From positions 33,029,501 through 33,093,500 of the forward strand of contig NC_081822.1 of the NCBI RefSeq assembly GCF_030704535.1: a stretch of 64,000 bases of DNA, written 5' to 3'. This document shows, piece by piece, positions 10,822-52,700 of the stretch. The notes under the pieces were generated by a model. It was given only the letters and a program-made list of their open reading frames with translations. It was not told the DNA's origin and did not search any database. Numbering within the stretch: position 1 is the first letter of the stretch; each line of letters starts with the position of its first letter. Origin of the DNA: Vitis vinifera (Eukaryota; Streptophyta; Magnoliopsida; Vitales; Vitaceae). A program made the position numbers and the translations under genes.

Positions 10822-11330
10822 TGTGGACCCCGCATTTTGTCTCATGCGTTTCCCACCCGATGGCGAGCTCGATTTTTATTTGAAAAAATGATTTTATTTA
10901 TTAGAAAATGACTCGAAGTCGCCATTTTGTGGATCCCACATTTCGACTCATGCGCTTCCACTCGATGGCGAGCTCGATTTTTATTTGAAAAATGACTTAT
11001 TTTTTATTTTTTAGTAAAATGACTTGGAGTCGTCACTTATTTTTAAAGGGTAAACAAAATAAGAAAGAAAACCCTAAGTGCGATTCCTTATTTTGGAAAA
11101 GGTGGTATGTGAAAAACTGGATCGGGTTCGAGGGTCAGGTTACTTATCAGGAAGGTACGGTAGAGACCTTAGCACCCCTCTAAGTCCCTAAAGTCGAGTC
11201 TCTACTAATGAGATAAAACAATCATGGTATCTAATAATGAATCAATAAATACCCGAATCGATCATGCATATATGAGAATCAGAACATGCGTAGAGAATGA
11301 CAGGAATGGGAGCGGATGCGTACTTGGGTA
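10822..11330 (-). repeat. Conserved terminal module of E1
   Basis: Reading the minus strand gives the same order of blocks as E2 at 52260-52700: a GTAGAGAC...TTTAGGG block, the run of CCTTCC/GATAAGTAACCTGAC, AAAATAAG, GGCGACTCC-like words, GAGCTCGCCATCG, and GGGGTCCACA. In E1 the outermost segment, from the terminal TGTGGA to the GTCGCCA word, is duplicated. GTGGCGACTCC resembles the primer-binding region of Tat/Ogre-type Gypsy elements, which makes a Gypsy-LTR origin plausible but unproven. Confidence 0.7.
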
Positions 11331-11929
11331 ACGAGCCACAATGCGCTATCAAAAAATGGGGTTAATGCACAATTGATGAGCATAAAATGTAGCACCCATG
11401 TCACTAAACCGAGCAATAAATCATCACAAGTCACAATTCAATCAAATGGATTTTCAAAGGAAACATCCAATAATGTTGGGCCCCCACCAAAGCCCGTTTT
11501 ATTTTAGCATGAATTAATTTCGTAAATTCCATTAATTGGAATTACGGAATTGAATCTATGCTTATTTTAAAACATTTTAAAATCATGGAAGTTGTGAAAA
11601 ATGTATGTCGATCATGGAATTGAATCTATGCTTATTGGAAAACGGATTTTCAGGAAACCTAAAAAAAATGCTAGGGACGAAGAATGGAAGAGTTAAAATT
11701 ATTTTTAAACAAACTAAAATCTAAGGAATTATTTGAAGAATGAGGTTTAGAAAAAATATTATTCAAATTAAAGATGGTGAAATGGGACATGTCACGTGGG
11801 TCAAAGGGTGGTTGCAGCTGCATCTTTCCTGAGTCACCCCCTTGTCGACTTAGCAAACTCTCTCATCTGATGTGAAATTACCATTGAAGTCATAGTCTTC
11901 TCAAAGACTTCACAGGATCTGTTACACCT

Positions 11930-12460
11930 CTATAAGAATTTCCCAATGCTGGTGGTCAATGTGGATTTGGGAATAGCACCAATAACTGCTTCTTTCTTCT
12001 CCCTGCTCTTGAAGATGATGACAGTTGGTATGCTTCTAATCCCGTACCGTGTTGCAATAGAAGGGCTCTCATCAGTGTTCACTTTGTAGCATTTGAGCTT
12101 CCCAATGCATTGCTTTGCCAGTTCATTGATTATCGGGTGGATCATGCGGCAGGGACCGCACCATGGAGCTCAGAATTCAACTAGAATGGGGTGTCAGCAT
12201 CAAGAACAATTGACTGCCAGGTTGCATCAGTCACAGCAGATACTTCAACAGCAATCTCCTGAGCCTCGCACACGACTCCTCCAACACAGCGACCTACTCT
12301 CGAACTCCGACCTGCCGCAACCATAGAACGAGAGGCTCGACTCGGCTGGATCTTCAAACCTGAGAACTCCGGCAAGTGTGATGTTTGAAGTTTTTCCTCC
12401 CACTGTTGGAGGTTTAGAGAGTTGAGAATGGAACGCTTGCTAGACTCGATCTCCCAACCA
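11930..12460 (-). pseudogene. Thioredoxin m (chloroplast type) retrocopy-like pseudogene
   Basis: Going down the minus strand from about 12450 there is a plastid transit-like segment (LPEFSGLKIQPSRAS), a mature start (VTDATWQSIVLDADTPF), the redox site WCGPC (12146-12160), and the C-terminal half including [27 protein letters not shown] and a stop at 11930. Two lesions break it. One base is missing next to 12181-12189, producing a TAG and shifting the frame. A TGA also stands at 12170-12172 where the family has Trp before the active-site helix. Functional thioredoxin m reduces disulfides of chloroplast enzymes. Transit peptide and mature domain run on with no intron, which suggests a processed copy. 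It is joined upstream to a pectate lyase fragment in the same sense. Confidence 0.88.
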
Positions 12461-13050
12461 TGGATATGTAATCCATGCCATCCATCCGTCAACATTTCCG
12501 CTCCGGTAGCCTTCAGATCCTTCTCGTCAACCTCCACCTCCATCTTCGATCACTGCTTGATTATGGTCTTGAAGCTGTTGACGATGAGCTCGTGTTTGAG
12601 TTTGATGAGCATGCTGGTGGAGAAGGTAATACACAGGGGTTGAGTCTGGATCACAGCGTGCTGGAAAGTGCCCAGGGTGGGGTTGATGGGGTCCTCGTCG
12701 AAGGAGTCGATGACCACATAGAACTGACCGCCTTTGCCGCTCATAGCGTCTTGGCCGAACCCAATGCCGCAGTTGGTGAGGCGCAGCTGGTTGTTTTGCC
12801 AGTTGGGGTCGCACCGCCAGCAGTCGTCAACGGGGTTACCGGTGAGACACGACAACCCGTCGCTTTCCTGTATAGGGAGCACTTATCTTCCCGATAAGGA
12901 TGCATTGAGTCTCCTTTGAACTTCGTCAACAACAACTTCAGGGTTAGGGTGCTGATGGGGGAAAGGGATATCGAGGTTGAGAGTGGCTCTGATAAGAGAG
13001 GAGAGAGACCAGAGAAGGCATAATGGCAAAATGCAGGTATTAGGAAGCAT
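12410..13050 (-). pseudogene. Pectate lyase 5' fragment, fused to thioredoxin m
   Basis: The minus strand from an ATG at 13050 encodes a signal-peptide-like start (MLPNTCILPLCLLWSL), then NPEVVVDEVQRRLN, and after an in-frame TAA (12883-12885) the pectate lyase block [41 protein letters not shown] and [11 protein letters not shown]. The catalytic core should follow with a GRG motif, but the sequence becomes scrambled at about 12550 and only GLHIHG is recognisable near 12460. The thioredoxin transit peptide follows immediately. Pectate lyases are secreted enzymes that cleave demethylated pectin. The calcium-binding and catalytic region is missing, so this copy cannot work. No intron is seen across the fragment. 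Confidence 0.87.
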
Positions 13051-13489
13051 CCTTGGCACAACGACAATGGCGACAGGTATATGATTACTATTGAAATACA
13101 TTCTTGGAAATTCCTTGCTCCCTCGGGCAGAAGTGAGAAAACAGATGCTCACCCAGGACAAGTACCAGAAACAGGGGAAAGATCTAAAACAGAGCACCAA
13201 TGGTAGAAACGAAAAGGAACTCATACAAGCCACATTCCATATTTTTATCAATGGGCCTTGATGAGGGTGAGTGAAGTAGAAGGCATCCCATGGAAAATGA
13301 AGGCAAAACAGAACTCCCACATGATGTACAAGAAAACTAAACAAGAGTTGTGCTGCTTTCGAATCATCTCAAAGAAAATGAAAGAGATAGCAACCAAACA
13401 TGAACCATAAAAACTAAACACAAGTCAAGCCATCCACATAAAATATCGAGAAAAGAGACTATTTACCAACAAAGAAAAATAAAAGATTA

Positions 13490-13849
13490 ATGGCAGTCAT
13501 ACCTTTACCTTATTCTCCCTCAAGCTGCCTGCAACTCTCAGCTAAAAGATCTCTCCTCCAAAGTCTCTCTGAAACCCAGCGAAAACCACCCCTCCTCCTT
13601 CTCTCCGCTCCCCATTTCTTACTTCTCCTCCAAGCTCAACAATCACCTCCCAAAATATCTCCTTACCTAAACGTCCCCAAACGCACCTCTTTCTTTGCTC
13701 GAATATCCTCCCTGCAGGTAACAGAATGCGCTTTTCCACAACGGCTTTTGCAGATTCCCTCCTTTACAGGCGTCTCATTCTCATTGGCTCATTCAATAGC
13801 ACTAGCTGAATCTATAGCAGCCTCTCTTGAGGCAGCACGTGGCTCTTGA
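13490..13849 (+). pseudogene. Unrecognised ORF with transit-peptide-like N-terminus, possible third captured fragment
   Basis: A 119-codon frame, rich in Ser, Leu, Pro and Arg and poor in acidic residues, resembles a chloroplast transit peptide. At about 13716 the sequence CTGCAG is followed by GTAACA, a possible exon end. It lies inside E1 and on the opposite strand to the two other fragments. I cannot name the parent gene. It could be a chance frame in pyrimidine-rich DNA. Confidence 0.35.
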
Positions 13850-13877
13850 AAGAGCCTTCCACTTGGCAAAGAAAATT

Positions 13878-15097
13878 GTTAGCCCAAGGGTTCTCCTAAT
13901 CGGGTTTTGATGATAACAAACCATGGTTAAGTGACTAATTTGTTTAATGGTTAAGAATCTTAGGCATAAACTTGAAAATTCATCAAATGACCAAATGGAT
14001 ACAAGATCGAGACATTTGGAAGACTTGTGATCATAGGAAACTAATATAAAATGAATGCATGAGTGCACTTAGGATTTTCACACATTTCTTGCAACTTAGA
14101 AAACTCGGTTTATTCTTTAAAACTTTGATTTCATTAAAACTCAAGTTTTTAACTAATGTACCTTAAGCAAAATGTTTTATAATTGGCTTAATAATTCACC
14201 TAAAGATCTTGCCTAAGTGTTAGAAAAGAAAGAAATTAAAAAAATAGGTTTTCGGGGCTAAAAAGGCTCAATCGGTCGAGATTATGGCCAACTGGCTCAA
14301 TCGGTTGAGGAACCGGTCGACCGGTTGTGCTCGTCCGGTCGAGGACCGATCGAGGAAGGCCAAAAAGTTTCTCTCTCCCAATAGCCTTCTCTTCCCGGTC
14401 GAGGGGATTCTCTTCCCGATCGAGGTTCGGTTGAGGATCGGTCGAGGCAACGGTAACCTGTCATGTATTAAATACTCCAACGGCTGGTGAACCGGTCGAC
14501 CCCTAACTCGACCGGACGAGGTTACCTTTTGCTATTTTTGAATCCCGAGCTTAGAAACCTATAAATTGAGAGCTCCACTTCATTTATTGATAAGAGAACA
14601 CTTGCATTCAATAAACTACCTACGTATTCTTGATAAAAAAAACTCTCATTTCTTTCATAGTGCATTAAATCACCACTTGCATATCCTTCAGTGCACTTTT
14701 GTGTCATCCTAGCTTTGTCTTGTATTTGAGCTATCCTTAAGTTAGGTTGAGGGATTATTTCTTGTAAAAATCTGAGTGTTAAAATGTTCAAGAGGTTTGA
14801 ATCTTGAAGAGATTGTATAAGAGCCCATTGGAGCCGGAATCCAAGTGTAAGAAGATTGGAAGCTTGGTCGAAGCTTCAAGTTAGTGGAACCCTCACTCGG
14901 TTAGGAGATTGAGGAGAGTGGACGCAGGTAAAGAAGTGTCGGACCACTATAAACCCGAGTTTGAATTCTCTAAACTTTATCTCTTTATCTTGCTTATATT
15001 GTGTTTGAATTTATTGTGATTTTAAAAACCCAATTCACCCCCCCCCCCCCCTTCTTTTGGGTGTTTTTCTTAACCAAGCATAACCTTTGTTTTCTCA
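13878..15097 (+). repeat. 5' LTR of the Copia element
   Basis: It begins TGTTAGCCCAAGGG and ends CTCA, and is collinear with 21754-22976 (1,220 against 1,223 bp) with scattered substitutions and small indels. A dense cluster of CGGTCGA and CCGGTCGA words lies at 14268-14525. A poly-C run occurs near 15040-15052. Confidence 0.93.
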
Positions 15098-15099
15098 AT

Positions 15100-15111
15100 T
15101 GGTATCAGAGC
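15100..15111 (+). other. Primer-binding site
   Basis: TGGTATCAGAGC matches the complement of the 3' end of plant initiator Met-tRNA and lies two bases after the 5' LTR, as usual in Copia elements. Confidence 0.93.
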
Positions 15112-15154
15112 TAGACCTCTTTTTTTTTTTAAAGACTTAATCATCTAAGAGGAA

Positions 15155-16110
15155 ATGACTATTCTATCAAGCTCATCCCAAGCTGAAATTTTTTCAAAAC
15201 ATAGAGCTCCATTCTTTACGGGAACCGACTATTCCTATTGGAAAACTAGAATGACTTGGTATTTGCAATCTACTGATTTAGATGTATGGGATGTCATTGA
15301 AGATGGCCCAAATTTTCCCACTAAACTAGTTGATGGATTTTTGGTTCCAAAACCTAACCAAGAATGGAATGAGCTTGATAGAAGAAACTTTCAATTAAAT
15401 GCTAAAGTCGTTTTTACTTTGCAATGTGCTATGGATAGAAATGAATACAATAGAATATGTCAATGCAAATCAGCTAAAGAAATTTGGAGGTTGCTTGAAA
15501 TAACTCATGAAGGAACTAATCAAGTGAAAGAGTTAAAAATTAATTTACTTGTTCATAACTATGAATTGTTTTCAATGAAAGAAAATGAGACTATTGTTGA
15601 GATGATTACTAGGTTCACCGACATTGTCAATGGTCTTGAAGCTTTGGAAAAAACCTACAAGGAATCCGAGAAGGTGATGAAGATATTGAAGTCTCTCCTA
15701 TCAAAGTGGAATACCAAGGCCACTGCAATTCAAGAAGCAAAAGATTTGACTAAACTACCTATGGAAGAGCTCATAAGGTCATCAATGACATATGAGATCA
15801 ATTTGACAAAGAAGCTACAAGAGGGTGAAGACAAAAAGAAGAAGAGCATAGCCCTCAAAGCTACAACCAAGGAAGAATAAGATGTTGAAAAAGAAAAACC
15901 AAGTGATGAAGATGATGATTTGACCCTCATCACAAGAAAGCTCAACAAATACATGAGAGGTGAAAGGTTTAGAGGAAGGAAGTTCACCTCTAGAAGAGAT
16001 CCTTCTAAAAAGGAATCTTCATCCCATGGTGATAAGGAGAAATAGGAAGAGAAAAGAGATTTAATATGCTTCAAGTGCAAAAATTTGGGACACATTTAAA
16101 TATGATTGTC
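15155..16110 (+). pseudogene. Copia gag (UBN2-type capsid and zinc knuckle), broken
   Basis: A 241-codon frame (15155-15880) gives a gag protein with PFFTGTDYSYWKTRM near residue 19 and a long helical capsid domain. A TAA at 15878-15880 stops it, but the same frame continues with a basic region (RFRGRKFTSRRD). A second stop is at 16043-16045 and a zinc knuckle start (CFKCKNLGH) at 16068-16094. An extra T after the knuckle His then shifts the frame. Gag would form the particle that packages the RNA. Confidence 0.88.
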
Positions 16111-16139
16111 CTCTCTACAAGAGTGAAGCCAAGAGAAGA

Positions 16140-17294
16140 ATGAAGAAGGCAATGATGGCCACTTGGAGTGAAAGTGAAGAATCCTCCGAAGAAGAAAAGG
16201 AGAAGGAAGTGGCAAACATGTGCTTCATGGCAATAGATGATCTTGATGAGGGATCAAAGAATGATAAGTGGTTCTTGGATAGTGGATGCTCAAGACACAT
16301 GACTGGGGATAAATCTAAGTTTGCTTTCCTTACAAAGAGAAAGAGAGGATACGTTACCTTTGGAGACAATTCAAAAGGGAGGATCATTGGTCAAGGTAAC
16401 ATTGGTAATGACACATCCTCTCATATTGAAAGTGTTTTATTAGTGGATGGTTTAAAACATAATCTTTTGAGCATAAGTCAACTTTGTGACAAAGGATTTA
16501 AAGTGATTTTTGAAGCATCTCATTGCATTATCAAAGATATTCAAAATGATAAAACCATCTTCATGGACCATAGATGTGATAATGTTTATGTAATAAATAT
16601 TTCAAAATATGATGGCCATGATAGATGCTTTTCAAGCATGCATGATCAAAGTTGGTCGTGGCATAGGAGGTTGGGACATGTTAACATGGACCTTATTTCC
16701 CAACTCAACAAAGATGAACTTGTTAGAGGCCTTCCCAAAATAAATTTTCAAAAAGACAAAGTTTGTGAAGCTTGTCAAATGGGAAAGCAAATCAAAAACT
16801 CTTTTAAAAACAAAAATTTCATTTCAACAACTAGGCCTCTTGAATTGTTGCATATGGATTTATTTAGTCCCTCTAGGACACCAAGCCTTGGAGGAAAATC
16901 TTATGCTTTTGTTATTGTGGATGACTTCTCTATATACACTTGGGTCTTATTTTTAAGCCAAAAGAATGAAGCCTTTTATGAGTTTTCAAAGTTTTGCAAC
17001 AAGGTTCAAAATGAAAAAGGTTTTACAATTACTTATATAAGAAGTGATCATGGGAGAGAATTTGAAAATATTGATTTTGAAGACTATTGCGATGAGCATG
17101 GTATTAACCACAATTTTTCAGCTCCTAGAACTCCTCAACAAAAGGGGGTAGATGAAAGGAAAAATAGAACTCTTCAAGAAATGGCTAGAACCATACTAAA
17201 TGAAAACAATTTACCAAAATACTTTTGGGCCGAAGCGGTTAACACTTTTTGTTATGTTTTAAATAGAATTTTATATATTAAGGCCTATTCTTAA
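16140..17294 (+). pseudogene. Copia protease and integrase region of pol
   Basis: A 384-codon frame. The aspartic protease active site DSG is at residues 47-49 (FLDSGCSRHMTG). The integrase zinc-binding region follows (WHRRLGH and CEACQMGK), then the catalytic D, D, E segments (HMDLFSP, RSDHGREF, DERKNRTL). Just after this, at about 17290, the frame is lost. Recognisable pol sequence (TPYELWKNKKP) continues in another frame, so the polyprotein is split. Protease would mature the polyprotein and integrase would insert the DNA copy. Confidence 0.9.
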
Positions 17295-17299
17295 GAAAA

Positions 17300-19355
17300 C
17301 TCCCTATGAGCTTTGGAAAAACAAAAAACCCAACATTACTATTTCAAAGTCTTTGGGTGCAAATGCTTTATATTAAACACTAAAGACAATCTTGGAAAAT
17401 TTGATGCAAAATCGGATATTGGAATTTTTCTTAGTTACTCAACTTCAAATAAAGCCTTTAGAGTTTTTAACAAAAAAAACCATGGTTGTTGAGGAGTCCA
17501 TCCATGTTATTTTTTATGAATCTAACAATTCTCTCCAAGAAAGAGAGAGCTTTGATGATGATTTAGGCTTGGAGACCTCCATGGGAAAATTACAAATTGA
17601 AGATAGAAGGCAACAAGAAGAAGTTGTAGAGGATCCCAAGAAAGAAGAATCACCTTTGGCACTACCTTCTCCTTAACAAGTGCAAGGTGAATCAAGCCAA
17701 GACCTCCCTAAAGATTGGAAGTTTGTCATCAACCACCCACAAGATCAAATTATAGGTAATCTATCTAGTAGGGTAAGAACTAGATCATCTCTTAGAAATA
17801 TTTGCAATAATCTTGCTTTTATATCTCAAATTGAACCTAAAAATATAAAAGATGCTCTAGTTGATGAAAATTGGATGATTGCTATGCAAGAAGAATTAAA
17901 CCAATTTGAAAGAAGTGAAGTATGGGAATTAGTGCCAAGACCTCAAAATCAAAGTGTTATTGGAACTAGATGGGTCTTTAGAAATAAAATGGATGAAAAT
18001 GGCATAATTGTAAGGAATAAAGCAAGATTGGTAGCCCAAGGTTTTAATCAAGAAGAAGGGATAGATTATGAAGAAACCTTTGCTCTCGTAGCTAGATTGG
18101 AAGCCATTAGGATGCTACTTGCCTTTGCATGTTTTAAAGACTTTGTTTTATATCAAATGGATGTGAAAAGTGCTTTCTTAAATGGCTTTATAAATGAAGA
18201 GGTATATGTTGAACAACCACTCGGTTTTCAAAGTTTTAACTTTCCTAATCATGTTTTTAAACTTAAAAAGGCACTTTATGGTTTGAAACAAGCACCTAGA
18301 GCATGGTATGAAAGATTGAGTAAATTTCTTTTGAAAAAGGGTTTTAAAATGGGAAAAATTGACACAACTCTTTTCATAAAAACCAAAGAAAATGACATGC
18401 TCTTAGTGCAAATATACGTTGATGATATCATTTTTGGAGCTACTAATGTCTCTCTTTGTGAGGAATTTTATAAATGCATGCATAGTGAGTTCGAAATGAG
18501 CATGATGGGAGAACTTAACTTCTTCCTTGGACTTCAAATCAAGCAACTAAAGGAAGGAAACTTCATCAATCAAGCAAAGTATATAAGAGATCTCCTCAAA
18601 AGGTTCAATATGGAGGAAGCCAGAACAATGAAGACTCCAATGAGTTCATCCATCAAGCTTGACATGGATGAGAAAGGAAAGTCTGTCAACTCAACTATGT
18701 ATAGAGGCATGATAGGTTCTTTGCTATATTTGACCGCTAGTAGACCTGGCATCATGTATAGTGTATGCTTGTGTGCTAGATTTCAATCTTGTCCTAAAGA
18801 ATCTCATTTAAGTGTTGTAAAATGTATTCTTAGATATTAAAAAGGGACAATGGACATAGGCCTATGGTATCCTAAGGGTGATAACTTTGAATTAATTGGA
18901 TACTCGGATGCCGATTTTGCCGGTTGTAAAGTTGAGAGGAAAAGCACTAGTGGCACTTGTCATTTCCTAGGACACTCACTTGTTTCATGGCATAGTAAGA
19001 AGCAAAATTCGGTAGCTTTGTCTCCGGCGAAAGCCGAATACATAGCAACCGGTTTATGTTGTGCACAAATCCTTTGGATGAAACAAACACTTAGTGATTT
19101 CAATTTGATTTTTGAGCATGTTCCTATTAAATGTGATAACACTAATGCCATAAACATTTCAAAAAATCCGGTGCAACACTCTAGGACTAAGCATATAGAG
19201 ATTAGACACCATTTCTTAGAGACCATGCACAAAAGGGTGACATTACACTTGAATTTGTAAGCACAAAAGATCAACTTGCCGATATTTTTACAAAACCCCT
19301 AAGTGAAAAGCAATTTGTTGATATTAGAAGACAACTAGGGGTGATTTCTTTATGA
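17300..19355 (+). pseudogene. Copia reverse transcriptase and RNase H region of pol, broken
   Basis: The main frame 17680-18840 holds the RT start (TRWVFRNKMDENG), MDVKSAFLNG, KALYGLKQAPRAWY and the catalytic YVDD at residues 246-249. A TAA at 18838-18840 separates it from the RNase H frame 18850-19260 (YSDADFAG, SWHSKKQ and TKHIEIRHHFL). A frameshift near 19230-19240 moves the last part (DQLADIFTKPL) to another frame, ending at about 19353. A TAA at 17674-17676 precedes the RT frame. Confidence 0.92.
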
Positions 19356-19877
19356 TCAAATGATTGCTTGATTGAATATACCTTATGATTGCATGAATTT
19401 CATATCATAAGCATCATATAGAAATCATCTTAGGAAAGAGGTCAAATTTTGACCAAAAATCAAAATTCCCGTGGCATTGGACATAAAAAATTAGGGATTT
19501 CAACTGAAAAGGGGAGAGGGAGGATCACGAGACAAGAAAATGCAAAAAATTTGGCCCGTTGACCATTGACCAAGCGGTCGACCGGTTGAGGAACCGGTCG
19601 ACTGGTTCGTAGGGGCTAGGAATTTAAAGAGCCCCTCCGCGCGTTATTTCTCTCACTGTTCTCCTTTACTCCTTGAAAACCCTTCACATACCTGCTTTCA
19701 GAGACCATTTTGGGTTGGATTTTGGACTGATTGAAGGTTGTGGAATTGATTTTGGGACATTTTGAGGCTAGGGTTTTGATTTGAAACCCAGGGTTTCAAT
19801 TTTTGGGGGTGATTTCTCTCTGACCGCGCGCCTCAAGCTTGGATTCAGCCTCATCTCCATGCACATAGGGCTTCGGG

Positions 19878-20927
19878 TTGGTGTTTGCTATCTCTTGTTT
19901 GATTTCATTCTCCTTTTGGACTTTTCCTTCTCCCTATTCCGTTCGTTGGATGGCTCCTAGGCGAGAAACGGGCACCTCCAAGGCTCAAGGCAAGCGCCCT
20001 GCTAAGCCATCTCAACCTGAGCAGACGGAGGCTCGTCGAAAGGCAAGGTATGATACGACACTCTTCAGTTCTGTCAAAGACTATCAGCGGTACAAGCAAA
20101 AGTTCGCCCCAGAGGAAAGTCGTCACAGGGAGAAGTATCAATTTCTCCCAACTTTAGCATTTTGGGTTTGAGGGACTCTTCGGTTGGATGGGATGGCTGC
20201 CAGTCGTGACGATTTCCGAGTCGATCTTCCCGACTCTAGTACGGGCTTTTTATTCACGAGCGACCTATGGGCTTGGAAGACCAGTCTTGTCCACAGTTAG
20301 AGGAGTTGAGATCAGATTGAGCCCTAAGAGTATCTGCCGCATTCTCGACATTCCTTTAGTTGGACTCCGAGTGTATGAGGCCAAGGCGTGGCCCACTGTG
20401 CCGGGATTCAAGCCTAGAGAGGTTGTTCAGAGGTTGTGTGGACTCGCAGATGCCCAGGGGATGGGCAAACCATCAGCACACAGCCTGACCGTGCCTAGCT
20501 GAGTCCTTCATCACATGATTTGCCCCATCTTATTGCCACGAGAGGACATTGAGACGAGGTTTCCTACCTTGAGGCATTTATTGTGGACTGGATCCTCACC
20601 GGGAGACAGATTCACGTTGGATATCTGATGATGATGCATATGATATCCTGCGTTGAGAACACGACACAAGTATTCCCCTATGACTGCTTCCTTACCCGAG
20701 TATTCAAAGATGCCGGGGTCGACTTAAGTAGAGAGATGGACTTCGAGGCCCCCACTAGCTATGACATGTACGATGAGCAGTCCTTGAGGCGAATGAAGTT
20801 CGAGAAAGCACCCGATGGCTCCTGGATTAGGAGAGTTGAGAGACAGGCTCAGGGTCAGGGACAGATGCATCTTGGAGCAGAGAAGAAGGCCGAGATCAGA
20901 GAGATGGAGGACGGGTTAGACCCTTAG
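19878..20927 (+). pseudogene. Extra 3' ORF of the SIRE-like Copia (env-like or plant-transposon-domain protein), broken
   Basis: After RNase H and about 500 bp of leader lie three frames, 19878-20171, 20188-20502 and 20583-20927. They appear to be pieces of one protein split by stops and frameshifts. A start at MAPRRETGTSKAQ is plausible. It is followed by a basic and acidic helical region and a later DWILTGRQIHVGYLMMMHM segment. SIRE/Maximus elements carry an additional ORF at this place, often called env-like. I see no convincing signal peptide or membrane anchor, so an envelope role is not supported. Confidence 0.6.
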
Positions 20928-21753
20928 AGGGATTTTGAGTAGAGAAGGCCCGCGTTTTACATTCCACCTCCACCTCAGTCAGAGGGCATTCATGTTGAGG
21001 CCACTTTTTCAGAGCATATGATGACTGAGCCATCTTACACAACAGGACCATCATCTCAACCATAATTAACCTAGTTTCCTCACACAGAGCTACCATCTTA
21101 GGCTTCTCACACTCCTGATCATGCGCCTTGGATGAATGTCTCTGCTCAGATAAGCTCCCTTGGGACTCGTATGAAGGAGTTTGCTTTAGTCTATGAAACT
21201 CGTTTCTACTCTATGGAGGAGCACATGGATTAGTATCAGACTGGAGTCACTTCTCGATTTGATCACTTCCAGCAGAGATTTGAGCGCATAGAGAGTGTAT
21301 GGATCAGTAGCAGGCTACATTCGAGCATTTCCAGCAGAGCATTGATCGCATTGAGAGTTGTCAGGCGAGTCAGCATGAGGAGATGATGGCTTACCTCCGC
21401 TCTGTGTTTCCTCCTCCACCCCTTCAGCCTTGAGATTATCTAGAGTTCCCCATCCGTTTCTTTTTTATGTTGCCAAAGGGGGAGAAATATATAGGATCTA
21501 GGAGATCCTCATGCATGTCATTGTTATCATTGTCATATCTATCTTGTTTAGTATATGTTTTCATGTACATGTGAGGTTAGCATATATATATATATGAAAT
21601 GATATTTTCATGATCCATTGCTTCCTATTCAAATTTTCGTGTTTTCCATTGTTTTCTATTAAAAATTATTTGATTGATCCATGATTGGTTTGAGGGGTAG
21701 ATTTTTTTTTCTCCTAGATAACCAAGGTTTGTCATCATAAAAAAGGGGGAGAT
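20928..21753 (+). other. Copia 3' untranslated region with two purine tracts
   Basis: The region is damaged coding or spacer DNA. A purine tract at about 21475-21486 (AAAGGGGGAGAAA) and a second at about 21739-21753 (AAAAAAGGGGGAGAT), directly before the 3' LTR, match plus-strand primer sites. SIRE-like elements often have several such tracts. Confidence 0.7.
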
Positions 21754-22976
21754 TGTTAGCCCAAGGGTTCTCCTAATCGGGTTTTGATGATAACAAACCA
21801 TGGTTAAGTGACTAATTTGTTTAATGGTTAAGAATCTCATGCATAAACTCGAAAATTCATCAAATGACCAAATGGATACAAGATCAAGACATTTAGAAGA
21901 CTTGTGATCATAGGAAACTAATGTAAGATGAATGCATGAGTGCACTTAGGATTTTCACACGTTTCATGCAATTTAGAAAACTCGGTTTATTCTTTAAAAC
22001 TTCGATTTCATTAAAACCTAAGTTTTTAACTAATGTACCTTAGGCAAAATGTTTTATAATTGGCTTAATAATTCACCTAAAGACCTTGCCTAAGTGTTAG
22101 AAAAGAAAGGAATTATAGGTTTTCGGGGCCAAAAAGGTTCAACCGGTCGAGGTTATGGCCAACCGACTCAATCGGTTGAGGAACTGGTCAATCGGTTGTG
22201 CTCGTCCGGTCAAGGACCGGTCGAGGGAGGTCAAAAAGTTTCTCTCTCTCCCAATAGCCTTCTCTTCCCAGTCGAGGGGATTCTCTTCTTGGTCAAGGTC
22301 CGGTCGAGGCAACGGTAACTTGTCATGCATTAAATGCTCTAATGGCTAGTGAACCAGTTGACCCCTAGCTCGATTGGACGAGATTACCTTTTGCTGTTTT
22401 TGAATCCTGAGCTTAGAAACCTATAAATTGAGAACTCCACTTCATTTATTGATAAGAGAACACTTGCATTCAATGGTCTACCTACCTGTTCTTGATAAAA
22501 AAAAAGCTCTCATTTCTTTCAAAGTGCATTAAATCACCATTTGCATATCCTTTAATGCACTCTTGTGTCATCCTAGCTTTGTCTTGTATTTGAGTTATCC
22601 TTAAGCTAGGTTGAAGGATTATTTCTTGTAAAAATCTGAGTGTTAAAGCCTTCAAGAGGTTTGAATCTTGAAGAGATTGTGTAAGAGCCCATTGGAGCCG
22701 GAAACCAAGTGTAAGAAGATTGGAAGCTTGGTTGAAGTTTCAAGTTAGTGGAATCCCCACTCGGTTAGGAGATTGAGGAGAGTGGACGTAGGCAAGGAAG
22801 TGTCGAACCACTATAAACCCGAGTTTGAATTCTCTAAACTCTATCTCTTTATCTTGCTTATATTGTGTTTGAATTTGTTGTGATTGAAAAGATTTTAAAA
22901 ACCCAATTCACACCCCCCCTCCCCCCTTCCTCCTTTGGGTGTTTTTCTTAACTAAGCATAGCTTTTATTTTTCTCA
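21754..22976 (+). repeat. 3' LTR of the Copia element
   Basis: Collinear with 13878-15097, starting TGTTAGCCCAAGGG and ending CTCA. It differs by scattered substitutions, many of them C-to-T or G-to-A, including losses of CG in the CGGTCGA cluster. Confidence 0.93.
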
Positions 22977-23024
22977 AACTGCAGAAAAAATTAAAACGAG
23001 CCCCAAACGAGGGTCTACAACTAT

Positions 23025-34744: not shown

Positions 34745-35745
34745 TTAAATCTAAATCTATGTTAATTAAACTAATTAACTAATTTAGCTAAGTTAATGTT
34801 TTAAATGTAAATATAATTCTATTCTATGATAAATTTACTAAATATAGAAATTAATCATAATTGAATATGAAAATAAATCGCGATAAAAAAAAATTGAGCA
34901 TATTTAATATTCCATATATAGTAGTTCATGTTAATTTAACTAATTAAATAAATTACCTAAGTTAATTTTTTAAATCTAAATGTAATTCTATGATAAATTT
35001 ACTAAATATTGAAATTAATCATAATTGAATATGAAAATAAATCGCGATAAAAAAAATTGAGCATATTTAATATTCCATATATAGTAGTTCATGTTAATTT
35101 AATTAATTAAATAATTTAGCTAAGTTAATTTTTTAAATCTAAATGTAATTTTATGATAAATTTACTAAATGTTGAAATTAATCATAATTGAATATGAAAA
35201 TAAATCGCGATAATATAAAAAATTGAGCATATTTAATATTCCATATATAGTAGTTCATGTTAATTTAACTAATTAAATAATTTAGCTAAGTTAATTTTTT
35301 AAATCTAAATGTAATTTTATGACAAATTTACTAAATATTGAAATTAATCATAATTGAATATGAAAATAAATCGCGATAATATAAAAAATTGAGCATATTT
35401 AATATTCCATATATAGTAGTTCATGTTAATTTAACTAATTAAATAATTTAGCTAAGTTAATTTTTTAAATCTAAATGTAATTTTATGACAAATTTACTAA
35501 ATGTTGAAATTAATCATAATTGAATATGAAAATATATCACGATAATATAAAAAATTGAGCATATTTAATATTCCATATATAGTAGTTCATGTTAATTTAA
35601 CTAATTAAATAATTTAGCTAAGTTAATTTTTTAAATCTAAATGTAATTTTATGACAAATTTACTAAATATTGAAATTAATCATAATTGAATATGAAAATA
35701 AATCGCGATAAAAAAAATTGAGCATATTTAATATTCCATATTTAA
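34745..35745. repeat. Tandem array of about six 165-bp units upstream of the hAT transposase
   Basis: The word TTGAGCATATTTAATATTCC recurs at about 34894, 35057, 35223, 35389, 35555 and 35718, a period of 163-166 bp. Units are nearly identical and 80% or more AT, each with ATAAATCGCGAT (ATATATCACGAT in one). The array lies in the transposase promoter or leader. Confidence 0.92.
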
Positions 35746-36188
35746 TATTCCATAATTAATCATGTTAATTAAATTAATTACATAATTTACTATGTTAATT
35801 AAATTAATTAAATAATTTAGCTAAGTTAACTAGTTTAATGTAATTCTAAATGTGAATCTAATTCACAAATAATCATCTAAAATAAATATATCATAACCTA
35901 AATTAATTCAATAAAAATATACAAATTAATTACAATTGAATGTAAACATACTAATTAATTAAAAATACATGAATTAATTATTGCAAACAAAATTAATTAT
36001 AATTTCAAATAAACATACCTTAAAATGATTGAATAATTGAGCAACCTTGGAAAAAATTGGAGTAATAAGAGAGCAAATGAAAAATCAAAGCAAAAATAGA
36101 TGAAATTGATGCAAAATTGGCTATTTATAGATGAAATTTGGGCCAAAATAGTCGTTGGAACCTTAAGTTACCATTCAAAATTAATTTT
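35746..36188. other. hAT promoter-side spacer
   Basis: AT-rich sequence followed by unique DNA upstream of the 69-bp duplication. No gene. Confidence 0.5.
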
Positions 36189-36337
36189 GGCCGTTGGATC
36201 ACAATTTGGAAGCAATCTGGCCGTTGGATCTCTTTGTTAATGTTGGGATTCAAATCTGGCCATCGGATCACAATTTGGAAGCAATCTGGCCGTTGGATCT
36301 CTTTGTTAACATTGGGATTCAAATCTGGGCGTTGGAC
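36189..36337. repeat. 69-bp tandem duplication next to the hAT/TNL junction
   Basis: Copies begin at 36189 and 36258, with a third partial copy at 36327-36337 that stops where TNL sequence starts. Each unit contains GGCCGTTGGATC twice. Confidence 0.9.
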
Positions 36338-36538
36338 CAACTGGTTGGAATAGGTTCCCAAATACGAGAAATGGAATTACTATTATGTACAGAATCAACT
36401 GATGTTCGCATGGTGGGAATTTGGGGCATGGGTGGCATTGGTAAGACAACCCTTGCACAAGCTATTTACGATCGAGTTTCTAGTCAATTTGAAGGTTGCT
36501 CCTATCTTGAAGATGTTGGAGAAGATTTGAGAAAATGA
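36194..36538 (+). other. Chimeric frame joining hAT repeats to NB-ARC
   Basis: A 114-codon frame starts in the 69-bp duplication and passes without a stop into the NB-ARC P-loop of the TNL duplicate. It ends at the TGA at 36536. The transposon part encodes a repeated IWPLDLFVN peptide. Expression is unknown. It is probably a chance fusion. Confidence 0.6.
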
Positions 36539-39500
36539 GGTTTAATAGGTTTACAAGAGAAGCTTCTTTCTCAAATTCTAGGACATGAAAATATAAAGTT
36601 AAATGGGCCAATTTCTCTAAAGGCAAGGCTTTGCTCCCTAAAGGTCTTTATTGTTCTTGACAATGTACATGATCAAAATATACTTGAATACTTAGTTGGA
36701 AGCCATGATTGGTTTGGACAAGGAAGTAGAATCATTATCACAACTAGGGATAAGCGTTTATTAATGTCACATGGAGTGAGGGTCTATGAGGTTAAGAAAT
36801 TAGTTCATACTGAAGCTATTGAGTTTCTTAGACGTTATGCCTCAAAACAACAAATTGCTATTGACGAATTTATGGAGCTTTCCAACAATATAACAACATA
36901 TGCTCAAGGGCTTCCATTAGTTCTTAAAGTCCTAGGCTCTTTTTTATTTAGCATGAGCAAACATGAATGGAGAAGTGAGTTAGACAAACTAAAAGATACT
37001 CCTCATGGTAGAATTCAAGAAGTGTTTCGAATAAGTTATGATGGGTTGGATGACAAAGAGAAAAACATATTTTTGGATATCGCGTGTTTTTTCAAAGGTG
37101 AAGATAAAGATCATGTGATAAAAATATTAGATGGTTGTGGCTTCTTCGCAGTTAGCGGAATAAGAGGTCTCATTGATAAGTCTCTTATAACTATTTCCAA
37201 CAATGACAAAATAGTGATGCATGATTCACTCCAAGAAATGGGTTGGGAAATCATTCGCCAAACAAGCCCTAAAGAGCCTGGCAAATGCAGCAGATTATGG
37301 ATTTACGAAGATGCCTATCATGTATTAAGTAAAAATACGGTGAGAACCTAATTCATCAATTACTTTTTTGTAACAAAGATTTAGATTGAAAAATACAGCA
37401 TATTAATTTTGTTTAAGTAACTATATATTTATATAATTCTAGAAAAATCCTTTATCTTGCATGTTTTTCACTAATCCTTTTTACTTGTTTATTAGGGAAC
37501 ACAAGAAGTTGAAGGCATATTTTTAAACTTGTCTGGTATAGAAGAGATACACTTTACAACAAAGGCCTTTGCTGGGATGGATAAGCTTAGATTGCTCAAA
37601 TTCTATGACTATATCCCCTCGACAAACTCAGAATGTACTAGTAAAAGGAAATGTAAAGTGCATATTCCTCGGGATTTTAAATTTGATTACAATGAATTGA
37701 GGCATCTACATTTACATGGATATCCTTTGAAGCTGTTGCCGCATGATTTTAGCCCCAAGAATCTTGTTGACCTCAGCCTGCCTTGTAGTTATGTTAAACA
37801 ACTTTGGAAAGGAATCAAGGTATGATTATAATTTATTCATTTTTTTTTAATAATTTGCAATATCAGCGAAAGCTAATTTTTCTAGCTACTTGTCATTCAT
37901 TTCAGGTTCTTGAAAAGTTAAAATTCATGGATCTCAGTCACTCCAAATATCTTGTAGAGACCCCAAATTTCTCAGGGATCAGCAATCTTGAGAAGTTAGC
38001 TCTCACAGGGTGTACGTATTTGCGTGAGGTTCATCCAACCCTTGGAGTTTTGGGCAAGCTTAGTTTCTTGAGTTTGAGAGACTGCAAAATGCTGAAGAAT
38101 ATTCCAAACAGCATTTGTAAGCTGAAATCTCTGGAAACTTTTATTTTTTCTGGTTGCTCAAAAGTTGAAAATTTTCCGGAGAACTTTGGGAACTTAATTA
38201 GAACAGTTGAAGGAGCTATATGCAGATGAAACTGCTATAAGTGCACTACCCTCCTCGATTTGTCTCTTGAGAAACCTTCAATTATTATCCTTTAATGGAT
38301 GTAAAGGACCACCATCTGCCTCATGGTTAACGTTGTTGCCAAGAAAAAGTTCAAATTCCAGCAAATTTCTATTGTCTCCGTTGTCAGGTTTGGGCTCTCT
38401 AAAAAAACTGAATTTGAGAGACTGTAATATATCAGAAGGAGCAGACCTGAGTCACCTTGCAATCTTATCTTCGCTGGAAAATTTGGATTTAAGTGGGAAT
38501 AACTTTATTAGCCTGCCTTCAAGCATGAGTCAACTTTCTCAGCTTGTAAGGCTTAAGTTGCAAAATTGCAGAAGGCTTCAAGCATTGTCGGAGCTTCCAT
38601 CAAGCATAAAGGAGATAGATGCACATAATTGCATGTCATTAGAAACAATCTCAAACCAGTTGCTCTTCTCGTCTCTTAGACATGTCTCTTTTAGTGAATG
38701 TTTGAAAATTAAAACCTATCAAAACAACATTGGGTCCATGTTGCAGGCTCTGGCAACTTTTCTTCAAACTCAGAAGAGGTCTGGATATGCTCAGGTGAGT
38801 CCATTCTCTATCTCTGATATCATTATTTTCATTATGCAGTAATATCATACAGTTGAAATTGATGAAAAATGAGTACCACGTGGCTCCACTGTTATACTAT
38901 CAAGAAATCTGAAGTTTATTTATTGAAAACAATTAGAGAAGAGTTTCAACATCATCATGATTCTCATGTACAGGATAACCCAGAGAGTGTGAACATTGAA
39001 TTCAGCACTGTTGTTCCTGGAAGTGAAATACCAGATTGGTTCAGCTATCAGAGCTCTGGGCGTAAAGTAAATATAGAGCTACCTCCAAATTGGTTTAATA
39101 GCAACTTCCTGGGTTTTGCACTTTCTGCTGTCCTTGGTTTCGATGCCCTGCCCAGTCACGACCCTAATTTTAACGTTTTTAGCTTATTTTGTATATTCGA
39201 TTTCCAAAATTCCGCTGCTTCTTACAGTGATAATGTCTTCCATCTTAATTCTGGGCCTGCATTAATCGAGTCAGATCACCTTTGGCTGGGGTATGCACCA
39301 GTTGTCAGCTCCTTCAAGTGGCATGAAGTGAATCACTTTGAGGCTGCATTTATGGCGTTCACCAACAACTTGGCCCTGGTGGTTAAGAGGTGTGGGATTC
39401 GGCTAGTATACAGCAGTGAAGATGTGAGTGACAACAACCCAACAATGATCCAATACATTTCTCCACCTCCTCCTCCCCGTTCAACTCTCCTTATTCAAGA

Positions 39501-39558
39501 AATTGATGAGGGGGGACCCAGTGGAAGTGCCTGCTCTAGCGAGGACTCATGCACCTAA
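36338..39558 (+). pseudogene. Partial duplicate of the intact TNL, lacking the TIR exon
   Basis: Nearly identical to 4166-7350, introns included. Exons correspond to 36338-37339, 37496-37819, 37906-38794 and 38974-39558. The TIR exon and start of NB-ARC are absent: homology begins at DQLVGIGSQ directly after hAT repeats. Lesions are TGA at 36536-36538 (an Arg codon in the intact gene) and a 4-base insertion at about 38195-38200, which shifts the LRR frame until 38207. One in-frame codon is also lost near 36783. The P-loop, GLPL, RNBS-D, MHD, LRR and C-JID-type domains remain readable. The C-terminus ends earlier (SEDSCT) than in the intact gene. Confidence 0.92.
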
Positions 39559-47737: not shown

Positions 47738-49413
47738 TGCATATATTTATATGTTTTCATTATATGAATGGAATCTTAACTTCAAGTATAAATTCAAGGT
47801 TTTCTATAGTAAGAAAATTATGTTTTTGTTAAATGCATGGAACCTTAACTTCAACCATAAATGCAAGGTCTATAGTAAGAAAATTACTTGTTAATGATTA
47901 AATAAGAGAAACTCTTATTCATGTCATGGAACAATTTTCATGACAAGTGAGTTACCTTATTATGCTTTTGGTGAGCCCACGTTTCTACGAAGTGCTGAGG
48001 CAGTAAGAATTCATGACTTCTTGTGATGATTTACTCACCCATGGTTAAAGTTCTCATCTTATGCTATCAATTAGATATAATAGAATTAAGGACCTTTTTG
48101 AAGAGTAGAGATCGCCAAACTTTTTGAAGAGTAGAGATCGCCAATTTCTATATATATATGAAAGGGAAGAGAAAAGAAAGTGGAGAGCGTATGATGAAAG
48201 CTTCAAAATCAATCCTAAAGGAGACTAATGAAAATAAGTAAAAACATTCCTTATAGGTTAAATATCATACTTAATCATTGTCTTAATGTAATTAGTTAAA
48301 TAATAACAATAACATCCTGATTAAATTAATTACTGAAAGTGGATTTGATAAAAACTAATCCATTAGGAACATAATTGCTCTTTAATTTTTGTTTGCAATT
48401 ACCTGTGGGACACTTTGCCTTGTGGTGGTTGTGTTATTGAAGACTTTGATTATATGGTGACTAAAAAGGACTCAGCATGCTTGACAAGGACCTGGTGTAG
48501 AGGAATGAAAAGTTGAAGCAATGAAACTTGAACAAGAATCTCACCTATGGATAACACCTAGAGGGGGGTGAATAAGTGTTTTTTTAAAACAATTAGAGAT
48601 GGTGTCTCACAAATACTCATAGTTCCCGTGTTCTTGTCTTATAAAATGATCTTGTTTTTCAACCTTATAAACAAACAAGCAAATCACAAGCAACAATGGA
48701 TGTATCAACACTTTCCCAAACAAGTTATTCAATGTAAACCACATGCAAATGAGACAACACTCCCCAAACATAATATTTAAAAAATTGCATCAATATAAAA
48801 ATTCATTTTCACATGCCCCTTATCATCAATCAACAACAACTAACATATATCTTGTTCTTTCAAAGATTCTATAGACACTTTTTAACTCATGCTTGAATTA
48901 ATTCAATCACCGTAATACAATGAAAAATATCATTAGTGCATGAAATGCTAGTAGACATAAAAGATAGAGATGAACACAAGAAGCAATACTTAGAGAATTT
49001 GAAAGAATGAAAGCTTTATTACTTAAGAATGCTTTATTGTGGCTTGAAATCTTTCAAGTGTTTAATGATTTGCCAAATGAGACCATCATCCATTTAGAGG
49101 CATCATGGGAACTCTCTAAGAATTGTGATGGTTCCCCACAAATTTAGGACTCCTTGGAGATTACTGCGTACAAGCTATGTATAAATTATGCATAAGAATT
49201 TTCCAGAACCATAGTATTCCAAGGATTTTCACCAATGTGTAGACGTCTTTAGGTCATTCTAAAAGCTTCTTCCCCCTCTGAAAGCTCAAGTGAGATTATT
49301 CAAGTAGGATGTGACAATCAACTATTGATTTTTTATAAAGTCTCACTCAAAACCTTCTCTAAATAGCTCACTTTTTTAATTGAAACCCATTTTGTTGTAT
49401 CTTTAAAACCCTC
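47738..49413. other. Intergenic region with possible retroelement remnants
   Basis: A 26-bp tandem duplication lies at about 48093-48145 (CTTTTTGAAGAGTAGAGATCGCCAA twice). ACACCTAGAGGGGGGTGAATAAG at 48557-48579 resembles a word common in plant LTR elements, but no full element is visible. Confidence 0.4.
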
Positions 49414-49994
49414 TGTAGACCCCCCCTAAGGCTGCGAAGCAGGGGGAAGTTTCCTTGCTTTTTTCTTTTTTATTCTCAGGCGGCTGATGAGAGGTGGGCT
49501 TGGGGCAGAGAAGTGCGGCTGATGGGAGATGCAGCAGGGAGGCTTGCGGGAGAAGCCAAAGAAAAGCTAAAAAGAAAAAGTTGGCTTGAGAAAGGAGGAA
49601 CCAGTGAGAAGCCGAGGAGGAGGGGAGTACCTCTGCGTTTAGACGAGTGCTGAAAGGCGAGCACATCTGGCGCAGAGAAGAGACTTCCAGGTACGAATAC
49701 TGTAGATTTCCTACCCATTTTCCCTATTATATCGCTCTTCATGCATTTTTCTAGTCGTCTTCTGGCTTGCATTTGTTACTTGGGTATATTATTGCTTTGT
49801 TTTCCTTGTCATCTTCTCCTGACATGCACTTCAAAGATAAATCTGGAAGCTCAGCGAGTGAGCCACCGAGTCCCTGGTAAACGATCCATCTTGACCATTT
49901 CTGGGTATTAAATACTCCATCTTCTCTTCTCAGTTGTGGTATGTTGCTCTGTGACCACCAACACCGCAACTCTCAAGATTGTTAGGGTTAGAAA

Positions 49995-50470
49995 ATGGAA
50001 CCTGGTAACGAAGTAAAGGATGACGCCTCTGTAGATTCTCTGACTTCAGTCCTGGAGGATGAGGGTATTTGTGAGGAGCAAATTAAAGTTAAGATGGAGG
50101 ATGACATACTTCTTGCCCTCGATGCAAAAAGTGGAGATTCTTCTCTTATATCCAGAACCATGTCAAAGGAAGAAGAGATGCTGATGAAAGAATGGGTGAA
50201 GGAAGAGGATGCAAAACAAGTAGTATCTCAGGAGGCCCCCCACTTGAATGACAGCCAGTTCACTAAATTGGATGAGCTTCTAACATAGACCCAGCTGTGC
50301 TTAGAGTTTTTATTGAAAAAAAAATGGATTCCATCATATTTAATCGTGTGGAGGAGAAAGGGAGTGAAATTGTTGAAGTAAAAAAGAGGGGTCGAGGTTC
50401 AAAAAGAAAAGAGGAATATAATAATAGGAAGGCCAAGAGAGCAGTTGCAGCCATGCTAGAAAGTATCTAA
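49995..50470 (+). pseudogene. DDM1: Fragment of chromatin remodeller DDM1 (N-terminal region)
   Basis: The frame 49995-50288 starts MEPGNEVKDDASVD and has an acidic N-terminus, then SQFTKLDELLT, a sequence characteristic of plant DDM1. A TAG at 50286-50288 interrupts it, an A-run change near 50315 shifts the frame, and the next part resumes at 50324 (MDSIIFNRVEEKGSE, then KRGRGSKRKEEYNNRKAKRA) and stops at about 50468. The helicase domain is missing. DDM1 is a SNF2-type ATPase needed for DNA methylation and silencing of transposons. The parts run together without an intron, suggesting origin from RNA. It is in sense orientation to the conserved end of E2. Confidence 0.78.
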
Positions 50471-50599
50471 GGCATTACCATTGAAAATATCTTGTGGTTG
50501 ATGGTGGGGTCTAGATGTAAATTCATGATATGCACGTTGCAAGACTTTGCTTTATTTTTCTTTGGGCTGCTAGGATGTTCAAACATCATTTGAAAATTC

Positions 50600-52195
50600 C
50601 CACCTTGGCCACCTCTAAGTGTGGTCACTTTGGCATATGGCCCCAGTAAGCTTTTGACTTTTTATTTGTCTTCTTATTATGTTAACAATTTTCCTAACTC
50701 TAGGTTTCAAAATTCCTTTCATGATTCCATTTCTCAAATAATTTTTAAAGCTTTTATTTTAGAATAGTATTCCGGAATTCCCATTTTCGTATTTATTTAT
50801 TTAATCATTATTCTTTTTGTTATTATTATTATTTTATTTATTTACTTTTAAAATTCTATTTTTAAGTAATTCTAAAATTCTGATTTTCAAATTTAATTTT
50901 TAATATAAAAAATTTCATTATTCACGTTGATTCATTTAAATATTATTTTTGTTATTATTATTATAATTTCATATTTATTTATTTCTTTCTTTTAAAAATT
51001 CAATAATTAAAGTTCAATTCTTAAAAAAATCTGACTTCTAAATTTAATTTTTAATATAAAAAATTTCACTATTCACGTTCATTCATTTAAATATTATTTT
51101 CGTTATTATTATTATAATTTCATATCTATTTATTTATTTCTTTTAAAAATTCCAATCATTAAAGTTCAAATTTTCAAAATTCCGTTTTCCAAATTTAATT
51201 TTCAATCTCAAAAATTTCACTATTCACGTTCATTCGTTTAAGTATTATTTTCGTTATTACTTCCAAATCTAATTTTCAATCTCAAAAATTTCACTATTCA
51301 CGTTCATTTGTTTAACGATTATTTTCGTTATTATTATTATTCCATTCATTTACTTATTCACTTGTTCATTTATTTAAAATTTCATCCCTAAATAATTCTT
51401 TAAATTTCCAATCCCTAAGTCCAATGTCCAATTTCTAAAATTCTAATTTTCGCAATTATTTATCCAATCTTTATTATTTTCGTTATTCTATTCATTTATT
51501 TATTCATTTGTTCGTTTATTTAAAATTCCATCTCTAAATAATTCTTTAAATTTCCAATCCCTAATTTCAATTTCCAATTTCCAAAATTCTAACTTTCGCA
51601 ATTATTTATCCGATCATCATTATTTCGTCATTATTATTATTCCATTCATTTATTTATTCACTCATTCATTTATTTAAAATTTCATCTTTAAATAATTCTT
51701 CAAAATTCCAATTTCCAAATTTAGGTATTTGAAATTCTAATTTTCCTATCTCCGAACTTAATTTTCAGTTTTCAATATTCCAATTCTCGTATTTTATTCA
51801 GTTACTCATTTATTATTATCATTATCATTATCATTTTATTCATTTCTAAAAATTCCGCCTTCGAATGATTTCCAAGTTTTCCAATTTTTATAATTCAATT
51901 TTCATAGTTTCTACTTCTCAAATAATTTTCAATTCTGATTTCTTTCAAATTTTAATTTCCAAAGTCCCAATTTTCATAATTTATTATTATTATTTTTTAA
52001 AAAAAAAAATCCCAATCACTCAAATAATTTTCAAAATTCCAATTTCTTTCAAATTTAATTTCTAAAATTCTCATTCTTACATTTAATTTCTAAAAATCAA
52101 ATTTTTAAATAATTTCTAAAACTCCAATTTTCAAATAATCTTTAAGACTCCAATTTTCAAATAAATTTCAAAAATCCAGTTTCCCTCGAACAGTT
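50600..52195. repeat. Low-complexity AT-rich tract in E2
   Basis: Many loosely repeated units containing AATTTCCAATTTTC, TTCACTATTCACGTTCATTC and CGTTATTATTATTATT words. Three copies of a TTCACTATTCACGTTCATTCGTTTAA unit lie at 51060-51310. No coding capacity. Confidence 0.8.
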
Positions 52196-52259
52196 TTAAA
52201 TTTGTTTAGTGATGCATGTGATATGTTTTGTGCTCTTTATTATATACTGACCCCATTTT

Positions 52260-52700
52260 TATGATAGCGCATTGCTCGTTCGTGGCCTAGGTACGCATCC
52301 ACTCCCATTCTGGTCATTTTCTATGCATGTTTTGATTCCCACATGTGCATGATCAATCTGAGTATTCATTGATTCCCTCATCAATTGCCATTGCTTGCTT
52401 CATTTTATTAGTAGAGACCCGACTTTAGGGGCTTAGAGGGGTGCTACGGTCTTTACCGTACCTTCCCGATAAGTAACCTGACCCCCGAACCTGATCCGGT
52501 TTTTCACAGACCACCTTTTCCAAAATAAGGAGTCACACTTAGGGTTTTTCTTTCTTATTTTGTTTACCCTTTAAAAATAAAACAAAAATAAGTGGCGACT
52601 CCAAGTCATTTTCAAATAATCAATAAAAAATCAATTTTTCAAATCAAAATCGAGCTCGCCATCGAGTGGGAAACGCATGAGCCGAAATGCGGGGTCCACA
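52260..52700 (+). repeat. Conserved terminal module of E2
   Basis: Collinear with the reverse complement of 10822-11330. Blocks are CGCATCCACTCCCATTC, TTAGTAGAGAC, GGGGTGCTACGGTC, TACCTTCCCGATAAG, CACACTTAGGGTTTTTC, AAATAAGTGGCGACTCC and GAGCTCGCCATCGAG, ending GGGGTCCACA. Confidence 0.75.

Follow-up and report, generated by a model that had tools for sequence, protein, structure and literature searches.

Spliced host-gene fragments in a variable slot within the long terminal repeats of a retrotransposon family of Vitis vinifera

The stretch of DNA analysed here, referred to below as the window, comprises 64,000 nucleotides of Vitis vinifera contig NC_081822.1 (G000:C18:33029501-33093500), and searches were made against a genome of 495.6 Mb in 21 contigs. 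Two elements in the window, E1 and E2, have the same terminal sequences, are flanked by 5-bp duplications and contain fragments of different host genes. The evidence presented below supports their assignment as solo long terminal repeats (LTRs) of one abundant LTR-retrotransposon family. Their features are as follows, the LTR sense being the minus strand in E1.

49414..52700, plus strand: E2, solo LTR of 3287 bases, TGTAGACC...GGTCCACA, with CCCTC at 49409-49413 and 52701-52705
49992..50311, plus strand: E2 cargo, N-terminal DDM1 fragment (PDB phmmer search and match to the parent gene)
50680..52190 (approximate), plus strand: E2 low-complexity A+T-rich tract between cargo and conserved end (self-repeats; similar tracts in other LTRs)
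52204..52700, plus strand: E2 conserved LTR 3' end, or module (matches to E1, other LTRs and further genome places)
10822..13874, minus strand: E1, 3' part of a solo LTR, with ACTAT at 10817-10821
22978..23019, minus strand: E1, LTR 5' end (TGTAGACCC) beyond the nested insertion, with ACTAT starting at 23020
13875..22977, no strand assigned: nested insertion in E1, outside the family (direct end repeats 13875-15098 and 21752-22977, 90% alike)
12553..12882, minus strand: E1 cargo, part of a pectate lyase (match to Jun a 1 in PDB, phmmer 3.5e-25)
11925..12244, minus strand: E1 cargo, thioredoxin m fragment corresponding to one exon of the parent gene (Pfam Thioredoxin 1.8e-20)
10928..11409, minus strand: E1 conserved LTR 3' end, or module (82% to E2, 76-79% to other LTRs)
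10822..10927, minus strand: E1, second copy of the U5 end, with the initial bases of the primer binding site (AAATGGCGACT) at the junction (sequence comparison)

E2 extends from TGTAGACCC, beginning at 49414, to GGTCCACA, finishing at 52700, with CCCTC on each side, and E1 from 10822 (the GTGGACC side) to 23019 (the TGTAGACC side), with ACTAT on both flanks, in agreement with the shared ends, sizes and duplications described in the initial annotation. The name Copia for the insertion nested in E1 is a label taken from that annotation only. About 500 bases at the GGTCCACA end are alike in the two elements (82%; 11409-10928 against 52204-52700), and no further match between them was among those listed at an E-value of 1e-8. 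The final 106 bases of E1 (10822-10927) repeat the U5 end (10928-11038) through AAATGGCGACT, with which the primer site begins. Because TGGCGACTCC is present also inside the LTR, this repeat resembles the result of a strand transfer landing on the inner copy, and the U5 duplication may be a strand-transfer scar.

A genome search with the E2 module returned 3224 first-look candidates, of which 40 (E2 included), all at least 90% alike, were scored, so that the family is abundant and its count is a lower bound. Nineteen of the 40 matches were fetched with 8.7 kb of upstream sequence. Seven of these loci are solo LTRs of 2.2 to 4.7 kb with perfect 5-bp duplications, four are the LTR pairs of two complete elements with equally perfect duplications (CTGTC for L038/L036 and AATGT for L039/L040), and one consists of an inverted pair, also with a duplication. 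No duplication was seen at seven of the 19 loci (L032, L034, L043, L044, L045, L048 and L049); at L045 and L049 none is expected at that end, because the primer site follows. The LTR-LTR identity in the two pairs is 99.87% and 99.71%. Six same-strand pairs, 10.8-18.7 kb apart, occur among the 40 scored matches, and in every pair AAATGGCGACTCCRCTGGGG, the primer site, comes after whichever member is first in LTR sense. The primer site itself, TGGCGACTCCRCTGGGG, was read directly; the sequence after the 5' LTR is AAATGGCGACTCCRCTGGGG, with a variant in L045. The purine tract is GAGGGGCATATT, the 3' LTR being preceded by GAAGAGGGGCATATT or a near form. A further element, designated C9, has a GTTTT duplication together with primer site and purine tract. 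The family therefore combines the two direct LTRs, TG...CA ends, 5-bp duplications, primer binding site and purine tract of an LTR retrotransposon, with LTRs ranging from 2.2 to 6.2 kb. The complete elements bear out the proposal that E1 and E2 are very long solo LTRs, and the termini assigned to them hold in other copies, whose ends lie exactly at the 5-bp duplications. A family of Pack-type DNA transposons was also considered and is ruled out by the LTR-type ends, duplications, primer site, purine tract and missing introns.

Two of the loci show unusual arrangements. L046 (G000:C11:19022932-19032832) holds a near-perfect palindrome (96%) of 6104 bases, in which two LTRs are joined at their 5' sides, both GGTCCACA ends pointing outward; a GCTTG duplication is present. 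The structure resembles the outcome of an integration through two U5 ends, and the palindrome could be a source of hairpin RNA. At L049 (G000:C6:8385470-8395370), a 6.2-kb LTR has a purine tract on its left and a primer site on its right, as might be seen in a tandem array of elements with a shared LTR.

Comparison of the LTRs with each other reveals a conserved and a variable part. The 3' end of the LTR, over about 670 bases, is common to 13 aligned LTRs; a common module of about 450 bp had been proposed, and the likeness of E1 and E2 at this end confirms its existence but not its length. Upstream of the conserved end a low-complexity tract is found in most LTRs, and otherwise only patches are alike. 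The last 750 bases of L044 and L047, for instance, are 94% alike, and no alignment was obtained between the two upstream of these at an E-value of 1e-10. Among copies that have the TGTAGACC...GGTCCACA ends and 5-bp duplications in common, the 5' portion of the LTR (the U3 side) therefore differs, and the variable interior suggested from E1 and E2 alone recurs in other copies. Among 20 other, shorter loci (1.5 kb upstream each) the slot sequence is common within several groups, so that slots are also inherited. Since differing slots exist alongside groups sharing one slot, the copies are neither all alike inside nor all different. The LTR thus consists of an invariant integrase end (TGTAGACCCC), a slot with exchangeable content, mostly a low-complexity tract, and the conserved 3' part of about 670 bases. 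The latter probably holds the core promoter, R, the poly(A) signals and U5, and these 670 bases would be enough for transcription.

In order to identify the cargo, open reading frames (ORFs) of at least 45 codons that passed a complexity filter were taken from 12 slots, and Pfam was run on 92 of 115 ORFs in sense and 96 of 110 in antisense. Four Pfam gene families were found among the 92 sense ORFs, namely Glyco_transf_8 (1.6e-25) and RRM (2.3e-13) in L049, Thioredoxin, with related models, in E1, and Linker_histone (4.2e-6) in L042; matches were assigned to loci by reading the translations, and three also by genome searches. The two pieces identified through PDB, DDM1 in E2 (phmmer 3.3e-17, 49992-50285) and pectate lyase in E1, are in sense as well. 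No Pfam gene family was found among the 96 antisense ORFs of the 12 slots, and PDB searches of two further L049 ORFs identified no gene. Recognisable host-gene cargo (pectate lyase, thioredoxin m, DDM1, HMGA, GAUT and RRM) is thus present in four of the 12 slots, with all six recognised pieces in LTR sense, and L032, outside the 12 slots, carries GAUT cargo as well. The cargo of E1, E2, L042, L049 and the C9 element is situated downstream of TGTAGACC and upstream of the conserved LTR 3' end. In E2, DDM1-like codons, read by eye, continue in another frame up to about 50467. The initial annotation was correct in assigning different host genes to E1 and E2 and in observing that the fragments read towards the module. 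Its description of a modular gene-capturing family stands as far as differing slots behind the same ends are concerned, but a gene was recognised in only a third of the slots and many copies belong to slot-sharing groups.

Four cargoes were compared with their parent genes. The HMGA cargo matches its parent on G000:C1 at 89% of bases, and the parent intron (GT...AG, 116 bases, 187-302 of L054) is precisely absent from it; a second intron of 79 bases, ending at 880, is also absent, the match past it being short (46 columns, 78%). This cargo starts within exon 1 and ends within the 3' untranslated region, with no poly(A) tract at its end. The GAUT cargo, 93-94% alike to its parent on G000:C15, precisely lacks a 389-base intron (432-820 of L056), and 110 bases of exon sequence and the two ends of the gene are missing from it as well. 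The thioredoxin cargo matches its parent on G000:C19 at 95% (L055 648-968), from an AG acceptor to just before GTAAGT, and part of the transit peptide, read by eye, continues upstream of this homology in E1. The DDM1 cargo matches its parent on G000:C4 at 95% over 50062-50311, with homology from an AG splice acceptor and a perfect match of 59 bases to the host gene; the parent is matched from residue 24 of 98 onwards, and the preceding DDM1 residues are present in E2. Splice junctions are thus evident in all four cargoes. Because introns have been lost (HMGA, GAUT) and homology ends at splice sites (thioredoxin, DDM1), we conclude that the source of the cargo was spliced mRNA, in accordance with the captured transcripts that had been suggested for E1 and E2. 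Spliced host sequence within a mobile element, as found here, is a feature of gene-transducing LTR elements of the Bs1 type.

These junctions bear on the view that the slot is simply fast-evolving U3 DNA, into which gene pieces came by exchange at the DNA level (gene conversion, end joining, or insertion of a Pack-MULE or Helitron). Most slots lack a recognised gene, as this view would have it, and the patches common to otherwise differing slots imply that some recombination occurs, but the precise intron loss in HMGA and GAUT and the exon limits in thioredoxin and DDM1 leave it highly improbable. Spliced cargo is predicted equally by a scenario in which host transcripts were first inserted in LTRs as retropseudogenes, through LINE-type retroposition, and then spread within a family that has no capture mechanism of its own; two genes in tandem in one slot are likewise to be expected from repeated landing. 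The truncations argue otherwise, since the HMGA cargo begins and ends inside the transcript and is without a poly(A) tract, and the GAUT cargo has lost exonic sequence and both ends. Moreover, retropseudogenes are expected in either direction, whereas six of six pieces are in LTR sense. We consider such an origin unlikely.

The distribution of the cargo in the genome was also informative. In the C9 element, read at its ends, HMGA cargo is found at both LTR positions, with GTTTT on each side. This cargo occurs at six genome places at 89% or higher, L042 among them, with an open frame in all six. The ratio of nonsynonymous to synonymous substitution rates (dN/dS) against the parent is 0.71-1.15 in five of five comparisons, and retention of the cargo as a working gene is therefore unsupported. 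Among five cargo copies the ratio ranges from 0.28 to 3.71 over 10 comparisons with few changes; it falls below 0.5 in three of the 10, all among L051, L052 and L053, so constraint within this group is possible. The DDM1 cargo has 14 genome matches, comprising the parent, two second pieces and 11 places, eight of which form four same-strand pairs 16.2-17.2 kb apart (LTR spacing). GAUT cargo with the same 123-codon frame is found at six places (one with a stop), in addition to a broken copy on C6 and the parent, and the E1 thioredoxin cargo at one genome place at 100%, with two short matches at 84-86%. A stretch of 879 bases of GAUT cargo is common to L032 and L049 at 95%, and relative to the parent both lack the 110 exonic bases and one single base, but their conserved ends are 80% alike; L032 contains no match to the stretch of L049 holding the RRM piece. 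This difference between cargo and ends indicates that one capture moved onto different LTR backgrounds, that is, that cargo is reshuffled. Two GAUT-cargo copies, at G000:C15:11678607 (-) and 11698194 (+), lie in opposite directions 19.6 kb apart; L032 holds the latter and includes a short inverted LTR end, 6 kb upstream.

The most probable explanation, in our judgement, is that the family is a Tat/Ogre-like LTR retrotransposon whose LTR slot takes up pieces of host mRNA through template switching. Reverse transcriptase, during minus-strand synthesis over the 3' U3 of the genomic RNA, would switch to a co-packaged host mRNA and then back, at a site passed soon after the first strand transfer. 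The outcome of the switch would be a sense, spliced piece with no tail, lying downstream of the integrase end and upstream of the conserved part; normal reverse transcription would duplicate it into both LTRs, and later LTR-LTR recombination would produce solo LTRs such as E1 and E2. Both LTRs receive a copy of U3, so that a single accident could yield a heritable pair of cargo LTRs. Splicing was observed in four of four cargoes tested, sense orientation in six of six pieces, absence of a tail in HMGA, presence in both LTRs in the C9 element and different 3' lineages for one cargo in GAUT; the template switch itself and the co-packaging we infer.

Alternatively, host sequence could have been captured within the hypervariable region that precedes the 3' LTR, a later shift of the purine tract having moved the cargo inside U3. 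Tandem arrays directly upstream of the 3' LTR differ from copy to copy (L036 3592-5809 and L040 2399-5137, in LTR sense), and this region is therefore recombination-prone. However, TGTAGACC follows the same GAGGGGCATATT-type tract in all four cases read (L036, L040, L049 and the C9 element), so that no shifted tract was seen, and we give this possibility very little credence.

Several points weigh against capture by template switching in a Tat/Ogre-like element. No switch point was caught in the act, and entry via a retropseudogene landed in an LTR retains a small probability. Eight of the 12 slots gave no recognisable gene in Pfam and PDB searches of their ORFs, so most slot DNA is unexplained. 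The thioredoxin evidence consists of the two limits of one parent exon and the DDM1 evidence of one splice acceptor, the neighbouring parent exons lying outside the comparison, and the DDM1 and GAUT places beyond those read are presumed to lie in LTRs. Finally, a search of 28 of the 34 ORFs listed for the 3' internal parts of two elements (the 5.6-6.4 kb preceding the 3' LTR) revealed no reverse transcriptase, RNase H or integrase domain, so that the clade and the coding capacity are tentative. The Pfam matches that these 28 ORFs did give (GluR_Homer-bdg 1.8e-10, with three members, ETRAMP 0.0011 and SCAB-PH 0.0049) were judged to reflect repeat composition or chance.

The Tat/Ogre-like affinity put forward in the initial annotation agrees with the very long LTRs and the tandem arrays upstream of the 3' LTR. 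The primer site TGGCGACTCCRCTGGGG is presumably complementary to tRNA-Arg, and a primer site of this kind is typical of Ogre. A longer form of the site (26 bases, TGG plus a tRNA-like end) has 10 exact genome places, which may belong to retroelements or to tRNA genes. One account of the Tat clade (Ogre/Retand) of Ty3/gypsy elements lists several-kb LTRs, 5-bp duplications, a tRNA-type primer site and non-coding tandem arrays (PMC6317226), and another deals with a long stretch that separates pol from the 3' LTR (PMC11963269). Long LTRs, 5-bp duplications, a tRNA-type primer site and tandem arrays are present here too, a likeness resting on structure rather than on reverse transcriptase or an extra RNase H; the family differs in having a slot within the LTR with pieces of spliced host mRNA.

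In Bs1-type elements the captured sequence lies between the LTRs, whereas here the cargo is inside the LTR, occurs twice per element and can persist as a solo LTR. Capture of host coding sequence, with several genes per element, has been described for Bs1 of maize and for other LTR elements of rice and sorghum in two reports (PMC13317346, PMC3726574), and in both respects our family is similar. In BARE-2 and Veju variants new sequence was brought into the LTR or element by abnormal template switching, according to the former report (PMC13317346). The donor described there is another retrotransposon or unknown DNA, in contrast to host mRNA, several times over, in the present family. Pack-MULEs and Helitrons also have conserved ends and changing host-gene cargo, taken from genomic DNA with introns; in the present family the introns are gone and the ends are LTR-type. 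No published description of host-gene capture inside an LTR was found in titles and abstract openings, a coverage that excludes most subscription journals. Gene capture by LTR elements is already known, and a U3 slot for capture appears to be new.

Elsewhere in the window, 4163-7366 and 36334-39545 are direct copies of 3.2 kb (96% alike) with an inverted relative at 57623-59427 (68%), and 34759-35855 is made up of tandem repeats about 166 bases long.

The arrangement described here places host gene pieces beside the control sequences of the element, and, because the cargo is inside U3, capture is doubled in each complete copy; captured host exons are moreover able to persist as solo LTRs. The variable slot explains why such LTRs seem mutually unrelated. 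Sense fragments of host genes (DDM1, HMGA, GAUT) could feed small-RNA pathways. DDM1 is the host's transposon-silencing remodeller, and it is conceivable, if very doubtful, that the U3 slot is a standing mRNA-capture site whose DDM1 cargo spread as a counter-defence, its small RNAs lowering DDM1 and weakening the silencing of the element; this idea points to the 59-base perfect match and the 11 places of the DDM1 cargo, with four LTR-spaced pairs, of which E2 was read. The family represents a datable series of apparent jumps of reverse transcriptase onto host mRNA, and the template-switch model is directly testable within one genome.

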